A stretch of DNA of 50,325 nt. It comes from Patescibacteria group bacterium (GTDB lineage: Bacteria > Patescibacteriota > Microgenomatia > UBA1406 > GWC2-37-13). The stretch is taken from positions 1 to 50,325 of the forward strand of contig JAOAEC010000002.1 in assembly GCA_026416975.1 (NCBI GenBank). Direction: 5' to 3'. Made by a program: the position numbers and the translations under genes. A model generated the notes under the pieces. It did no database searches and was not told where the DNA came from. It saw nothing but the letters and a program-made list of their open reading frames with translations. Numbering within the stretch: the first letter of the stretch is position 1; every line of letters begins with the position of its first letter. Shown piece after piece: positions 36,544-37,673 of this stretch.

Positions 36544-37245
36544 ATGAATACTAAAAAAAAGACAGTTCTTATTATTGTAAATTTGATTCTTTTGCTTTTA
36601 TTATCTGCGGTTTTAGGATATTATTTTTATTATAAGAAGTCAAATAAGCCTTTTTTTGTTAAAGGACAGCAAGTAAGATATGCTTTTGGTTGTTTAGATG
36701 AATCAAAAAATGTTAACGATTATTTAGAGAGATCAGATAATAAACAATGTGTTTGGGTAAGAGATGATGATGGTGGTGCTAAGAGACAGTCTTTTCAATT
36801 TGGTCAGTATTTTTTTTGTAAAAAAAATGGAGCTAATGGTTGTCCTGCACCAAAGTCTGGTGTTAAAGAAGATGAGGGATATGTATTCTATGACTATTAT
36901 ATATGTTTTTCTAAAGATTGTGGAACAGAACAAATAGATTTTAAATTTAATGATGCAGAATGTTTTTATTCAAAAATAGATGATGATTGTGAGGAAGAAA
37001 TTACTCCAACCCCAACCCCAACTGAAGCTCCAACAGGAACACCAACACCAACCCAAACTCCAACCCCAACCCCAACTGAAGCTCCAAGTCCAACAGAGAT
37101 AGTGTTAGTACAACCAACATCGACTTTAACAATTGTTCCAACCACAGAAACACAAATTTCTATTCCAGAAGCAGGTTCAACTAAAAATGCCTCTTTGTTT
37201 TTTTTAATTCCATTAGCGTTGATATTTTTAGGAGTATTATTTTAA
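36544..37245 (+). CDS. Cell-surface protein with Pro/Thr stalk and C-terminal TM
   Basis: N-terminal TM, Cys-containing ectodomain, TPTPTPTEAPTGTPTPTQTPTPTPTEAPSPTE. Confidence 0.6.
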   Translation: MNTKKKTVLIIVNLILLLLLSAVLGYYFYYKKSNKPFFVKGQQVRYAFGCLDESKNVNDYLERSDNKQCVWVRDDDGGAKRQSFQFGQYFFCKKNGANGCPAPKSGVKEDEGYVFYDYYICFSKDCGTEQIDFKFNDAECFYSKIDDDCEEEITPTPTPTEAPTGTPTPTQTPTPTPTEAPSPTEIVLVQPTSTLTIVPTTETQISIPEAGSTKNASLFFLIPLALIFLGVLF

Positions 37246-37272: not shown

Positions 37273-37302
37273 TTGACAAAAAGAAAAAGATTATTTTATA
37301 CT
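37273..37302 (+). promoter_or_regulatory. Promoter of structured RNA
   Basis: TTGACA (37273-37278), 18-nt spacer, TATACT (37297-37302). Confidence 0.7.
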
Positions 37303-37309
37303 TAAAACT

Positions 37310-37500
37310 GATCCTCCCCAAGAGGAAAAATTTGAAAACTTTTTCTCTACGCTATCAAAATTGAGGGTAATCAGATACCGTCTGGTATCTGAGATGAGAC
37401 AGTTTTCTCTTAGTCTGTGGATTAAGAGAGGCGTCTTCCCCTTTATTTTTCAGGGAAAAAGTTCTAAAATCCTCGGTTGGGAGGATCGCTTCTGTTTTTT
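37310..37500 (+). ncRNA. Structured ncRNA, class unresolved (6S-like architecture possible)
   Basis: GATCCTCCC(37310-37318)/GGGAGGATC(37479-37487); AACTTTTTCTCT/AGGGAAAAAGTT; ACGC/GCGT; hairpins CAGATACC-GTCT-GGTATCTG and CTCTTA..TAAGAG; T-run after. Confidence 0.7.
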
Positions 37501-37673
37501 GAGTTTTTTAAAAAAGAGGTTGATTTTTTAAAAAAAGTATTTTATAATTTAAGAAATCTTGTTTATTAAGCTTAAAGTATTTTAAGACTTCGACAAGTTT
37601 TTAAAAATTTTTTTCCGAACTTGTTAAGGAACCCTACAAAAATTAAATAAAAGGAAATCCTTATTTTAAAGAT

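Follow-up and report, generated by a model that had tools for sequence, protein, structure and literature searches.

A stand-alone RNA gene upstream of rho

The window, by which we mean the whole 50,325-nucleotide stretch of contig JAOAEC010000002.1 that was analysed, comes from a Patescibacteria group bacterium of the Microgenomatia and carries, directly ahead of the gene for the transcription termination factor Rho, a structured RNA gene with a promoter of its own. The features of the locus are as follows.

37273–37302, plus strand: sigma-70-type promoter, with the -35 box TTGACA at 37273–37278, an 18-nt spacer and the -10 box TATACT at 37297–37302; predicted start near 37310
37310–37487, plus strand: structured RNA gene of 178 nt, a candidate divergent 6S RNA (SsrS) by its fold, its conservation and the Rfam 6S match on its homologue L099
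37674–38936, plus strand: rho, transcription termination factor (Rho_RNA_bind, PF07497, E = 2.7e-25), starting 186 nt past the RNA

When the whole window was searched with Rfam at the gathering score, two tRNAs were the only matches. On the other side of the RNA gene from rho, positions 36544–37245 encode a predicted membrane-anchored protein of 233 aa that has repeats rich in Pro and Thr (TPTPTPTEAP), a hydrophobic segment at its C-terminal end and no Pfam match. The 186 nt that separate the RNA from rho (37488–37673) contain T-runs, an ACAAGTT/AACTTGT inverted repeat and a possible weak promoter, TTGATT-17-TATAAT, at 37520–37548.

The promoter of the RNA gene, TTGACA-18-TATACT, agrees with the consensus at 11 of 12 positions and is the best in the region. 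A preliminary description, made from the sequence without database searches, had given the RNA its own promoter and had placed the predicted +1 on the first base of a terminal stem, and both claims are borne out: the first RNA base, 37310, lies 7 nt past the end of the -10 box, and the same spacing recurs in homologues. All of the first 20 homologues extracted (20/20) have TTGACA, a spacer of 17–18 nt and a -10 box ending 6–8 nt 5' of the closing stem, and the mean best promoter match among 55 homologues is 10.65 of 12, as opposed to 7.65 in shuffles. A promoter thus stands at a constant distance in nearly all homologues and exceeds chance. The 3' end of the RNA is defined by its closing stem, with no conserved terminator behind it. 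The T-runs that had been remarked on after the element are present in the window copy but are not general, and a conserved intrinsic terminator is unsupported since only 19 of 68 homologues have a run of at least five T within 40 nt 3' of the RNA. The window locus is a genuine stand-alone RNA gene.

The fold energy of the region 37305–37505 is -72 kcal/mol, compared with -48.9 ± 4.3 kcal/mol for shuffled sequences (z = -5.3), and 0 of 200 shuffles folded as well. The closing stem P1 pairs GATCCTCCC (37310–37318) with GGGAGGATC (37479–37487), so that the 9-bp terminal stem, earlier said to close about 178 nt, closes exactly that number. The fold comprises the following elements.

37310–37348, plus strand: closing stem, 5' strand, with P1 at 37310–37318, P2 at about 37322–37325 and P3 at 37337–37348, based on covariation and the alignment of L099 to RF00013
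37349–37364, plus strand: central bubble, 5' strand, 16 nt, from the structure; the putative start of a product RNA would lie near 37349–37351, by analogy
37365–37440, plus strand: apical domain, in which P4 (GGG at 37365–37367 with CCC at 37438–37440) stands around HP1 and P5
37372–37391, plus strand: hairpin HP1, an additional arm through which the junction becomes three-way
37396–37437, plus strand: P5/P5b hairpin, the equivalent of the 6S apical arm (37396–37401 with 37432–37437; 37406–37411 with 37424–37429)
37441–37451, plus strand: central bubble, 3' strand, 11 nt, from the structure; corresponds to where 6S RNAs make their -10-like contact, a role given here by analogy
37452–37487, plus strand: closing stem, 3' strand, with P3 at 37452–37463, P2 at 37471–37474 and P1 at 37479–37487

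The 12-bp helix (37337–37348 with 37452–37463) and the two hairpins (37372–37391 and about 37406–37429) of the preliminary description are present. Its ACGC/GCGT pairing, on the other hand, is unsupported: the family structure places ACGC in the bubble (5' strand) and GCGT in helix P5 (3' strand). Two-sided changes are seen in six of six pairs in P5 and likewise in six of six in P5b, and in P4 there are compensatory changes at one pair in 8 of 54 sequences and at another pair in 1. A local hairpin proposed by RNAalifold, ACGCU/AGGGU, competes with the GGG/CCC pairing of P4; we prefer the latter, for which 99% of cells are paired and compensatory changes are seen.

Conservation and distribution of the RNA

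Related DNA was found by blastn in 28 of 96 relatives. A covariance model built from 20 extracted copies (R1) detected the RNA in 57 of the 72 genomes of the window's family, each with a single locus once matches to the opposite strand of that rod are set aside; across the class Microgenomatia, 36 of 233 genomes were positive with R1. With a further model (R2), a search of 380 genomes of the phylum gave 7 with the RNA, all within Microgenomatia and none outside the class, and this search doubles as a specificity control. A third model (R3), like the other two built from the window's family, found the RNA in 13 of 40 class genomes, nearly all of which had previously been searched without a match. 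The label of orphan that the RNA had first been given is refuted by this distribution, which takes in many families besides the window's and is that of a class-wide, essentially single-copy RNA.

The fold is conserved along with the gene. In an alignment of 54 copies (A5), which was fitted to a covariance model and is hence biased towards the structure, 91.1% of cells are paired compared with 72.3% after shuffling, two-sided changes occur in 42 of 46 pairs compared with 31.2, and the covariation score is 0.572 compared with 0.222 for shuffled alignments and no more than 0.151 for slid ones. A MAFFT alignment of 20 copies, made with no model, yields a covariation score of 0.316, the corresponding values being 0.178 for shuffled and at most 0.122 for slid alignments. 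The claim of a structured RNA gene is thus confirmed, with strong covariation among homologues. The RNA measures 159–204 nt among homologues, with a median closing stem of 41/37 nt and a bubble of 16/11 nt. Its most conserved block, 37335–37351, is the edge of the bubble, and the best 12-column block within it (37339–37350) has a mean identity of 84% over 54 sequences; away from the bubble edge the sequence is poorly conserved across the class.

Relationship to 6S RNA and to other RNA classes

At the gathering score the window copy has no match to any Rfam family, and at E ≤ 10 the region gives no 6S and nothing credible. Weak Rfam matches to snoU83, RAGATH-27, miRNAs and lncRNAs were judged to be chance. 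Sixty genomes of the window's family were searched with RF00013, and none showed an ordinary 6S RNA.

The link to 6S RNA passes through L099, the most distant homologue, from family f19. This locus matches RF00013 over model positions 1–187 with 47.7 bits, where the gathering score, a detection criterion and not a biochemical definition, is 46.4. The two models delimit the same element on the same strand, R3 at 1653–1501 and 6S at 1655–1498, with ends within three bases of each other; a -10 box, TATAAT, stands just upstream of it, and genes for tRNA-Thr and tRNA-Tyr lie downstream, as in other deep members. When L099 is aligned to 6S, the UUUUUCCUC/GGGGAAAAA helix that the family conserves falls on the 6S helix bordering the central bubble, GGG/CCC falls on the base of the apical arm, and P3 of the window RNA corresponds to 6S helix P2, adjoining the bubble. 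In a second f19 genome, L102, the best Rfam match on the R3 segment is again RF00013, at a sub-threshold 29.2 bits (E = 0.018). L100 and L101 gave no 6S match, and R3 found no match in the E. coli 6S region, as expected at such a distance. The link from R3 to L099 is modest (E of 6e-5 per genome, with 40 genomes searched), and these rods are self-complementary, with antisense scores of up to about 39 bits at true loci. Because the window copy is unmatched and R3 misses E. coli 6S, membership in the 6S family rests on one intermediate above the threshold, by 1.3 bits, and one below it. The family is nevertheless tied by a chain of homology to an Rfam 6S match, which supports the divergent 6S RNA among the options first offered, and by these sequence comparisons the window RNA is very probably the 6S RNA (SsrS) of its Microgenomatia lineage, diverged beyond the reach of the Rfam model.

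As published, 6S RNAs are rod-shaped and about 200 nt long, a central bubble separating the closing stem from the apical one, and their contacts comprise a -10-like one in the 3' strand of the bubble and a -35-like one in the apical arm (PMC8876501). The window RNA, of about 180 nt, shares with 6S RNA the closing stem, central bubble and apical arm, the stand-alone and essentially single-copy gene with its own sigma-70 promoter, and a peak of conservation at the bubble edge, where the pRNA of 6S is templated. It differs in that the window copy is invisible to the Rfam model, in that HP1 turns its apical base into a three-way junction, unlike textbook 6S RNA, in its A+U-rich bubble-side helix (UUUUUC/GAAAAA), and in the linkage of this type of RNA to rho or tRNA-Thr. 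The three-way junction is found in most members of the family; L099, L100 and L101, however, lack HP1, and their apical domain has the one arm of textbook 6S RNA.

The want of an Rfam match in the window copy, the three-way junction and the poor sequence conservation beyond the bubble edge across the class would all suit a lineage-specific structured RNA not descended from 6S RNA, its rod and central bubble having arisen by convergence and its function being unrelated to RNA polymerase. Such an RNA would not be expected to give the above-threshold 6S match of L099, with the same ends and helices, nor the best match of L102, nor to occupy genomes in which, for the window's family, no other 6S RNA was found, and we regard convergence as unlikely. 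Kinship with 6S RNA is also a property of Ms1, an RNA-polymerase-binding RNA of Actinobacteria that is structurally related to 6S (PMC9130861). It is extremely improbable, however, that the window encodes an Ms1-like RNA binding core RNA polymerase without sigma: Ms1, which does bind the core enzyme, is known from Actinobacteria only, in a HAD-hydrolase/oxidoreductase context that is not seen here, and no sequence link to it was found, the Rfam link being to 6S RNA.

The position of the gene raises the further possibility, already put forward in the preliminary description, of a cis-acting rho leader, that is, a structured 5' part of the rho mRNA that sets rho expression, for instance in Rho autoregulation. 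At 47 loci of families f1, f2, f3 and f25 rho is indeed the next gene on the same strand (an additional motif match, in L067, is not rho), and read-through into rho is possible because no promoter above chance level was found between the RNA and rho. The deeper families, however, keep the same RNA and the same promoter beside genes for tRNA-Thr(UGU), tRNA-Tyr(GUA), tRNA-Thr(GGU) and tRNA-Trp(CCA), not rho, and the two-sided covariation of the entire fold persists in these tRNA-linked families. The RNA is therefore not always upstream of rho, an element acting on rho in cis would hardly be expected to retain fold and promoter in such places, and a leader is disfavoured to the point of being very unlikely. 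A conserved linkage of the RNA to the series tRNA-Thr(UGU)-tRNA-Tyr-tRNA-Thr(GGU)-tRNA-Trp was observed at the deep loci L064, L066, L069, L080, L081, L090 and others.

Several other RNA classes were considered and rejected. RNase P RNA (RF00010) has a separate gene in G150, G076 and G225, all of which carry the window-type RNA too. It is present below the gathering score in families f25, f9 and f18, and none was found with RF00010 in nine f1/f2 genomes, from the window's family and order (G000, G007, G026, G045, G030, G020, G032, G062 and G068); diverged RNase P RNAs have been reported in CPR bacteria (PMC8172020). For tmRNA (RF00023) there are separate matches in 12 of 12 genomes, 11 of them above the cut-off. 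SRP RNA was briefly attractive, as RF00169 matched nothing, but was dropped, Ffh also being absent and the domain IV motif missing. In searches of 12 Microgenomatia genomes each (the first eight of the nine just listed, G150, G076, G225, and either G172 or G068), the bacterial small SRP RNA (RF00169) had no match, the SRP domain IV core motif was not found above chance, and the Ffh M domain (PF02978) was found in 0 of 12 genomes, whereas all 14 control genomes have it. Microgenomatia seem either to have lost the signal recognition particle or to carry one that is beyond recognition. Finally, a likeness of the GATCCTCC stem to the anti-Shine-Dalgarno sequence was dropped because the sequence of P1 differs in deeper families (TGCCC.., GCTCTTTG..).

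Predicted function and significance

The gene has a strong sigma-70 promoter of its own, from which transcription is predicted to begin with the first base of the closing stem. The RNA folds into an irregular closing stem, about 40 nt long on each side, a bubble (5' strand 16 nt, 3' strand 11 nt) and an apical arm, to the base of which HP1 is added in the window lineage, giving the three-way junction. From its homology, it would be expected to mimic an open promoter and to hold the housekeeping RNA polymerase holoenzyme, with release occurring as the polymerase transcribes the bubble edge into a short product RNA (pRNA). In B. subtilis 6S-1 the pRNA starts at nt 40, and its template is the 5' strand of the bubble with the adjoining helix (PMC8876501). 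By analogy, a putative pRNA of the window RNA would start near 37349–37351, on a template running back into P3, and is predicted to begin near 5'-GUAGAGAAAAAGUUUU; as an antisense species near 37349–37351 it would read 5'-GUAGAGAAAAAG.. The conserved block 37335–37351 is the bubble-edge segment that would template this product. Binding of RNA polymerase, synthesis of pRNA, release by it and any growth-phase regulation are all inferred from homology.

A 6S descendant remodelled as a three-way-junction RNA may also differ from this scheme. Because HP1 separates the -10-like bubble from the -35-like apical arm, a different polymerase geometry is possible; alternatively, binding could be sigma-free, as with Ms1, and the fixed position of the gene before rho in one branch may couple polymerase sequestration to Rho levels by read-through. 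We consider this reading conceivable but rather doubtful.

Although 6S RNA has been described as widespread among bacteria, the literature that we searched yielded no report of 6S or structured RNA in CPR, Patescibacteria or Microgenomates. If the window RNA is a divergent 6S RNA, standard databases miss 6S RNA in the Microgenomates group, and the identification would account for a conserved, unannotated gene adjoining rho. The 6S family model would gain in range from the alignment of 54 sequences, and the natural three-way-junction variant would offer a test of which promoter-mimic parts matter. For the organisms themselves, it would mean that RNA-based global control of the polymerase persists in Microgenomatia genomes of about 1 Mb, even with the signal recognition particle apparently lost.
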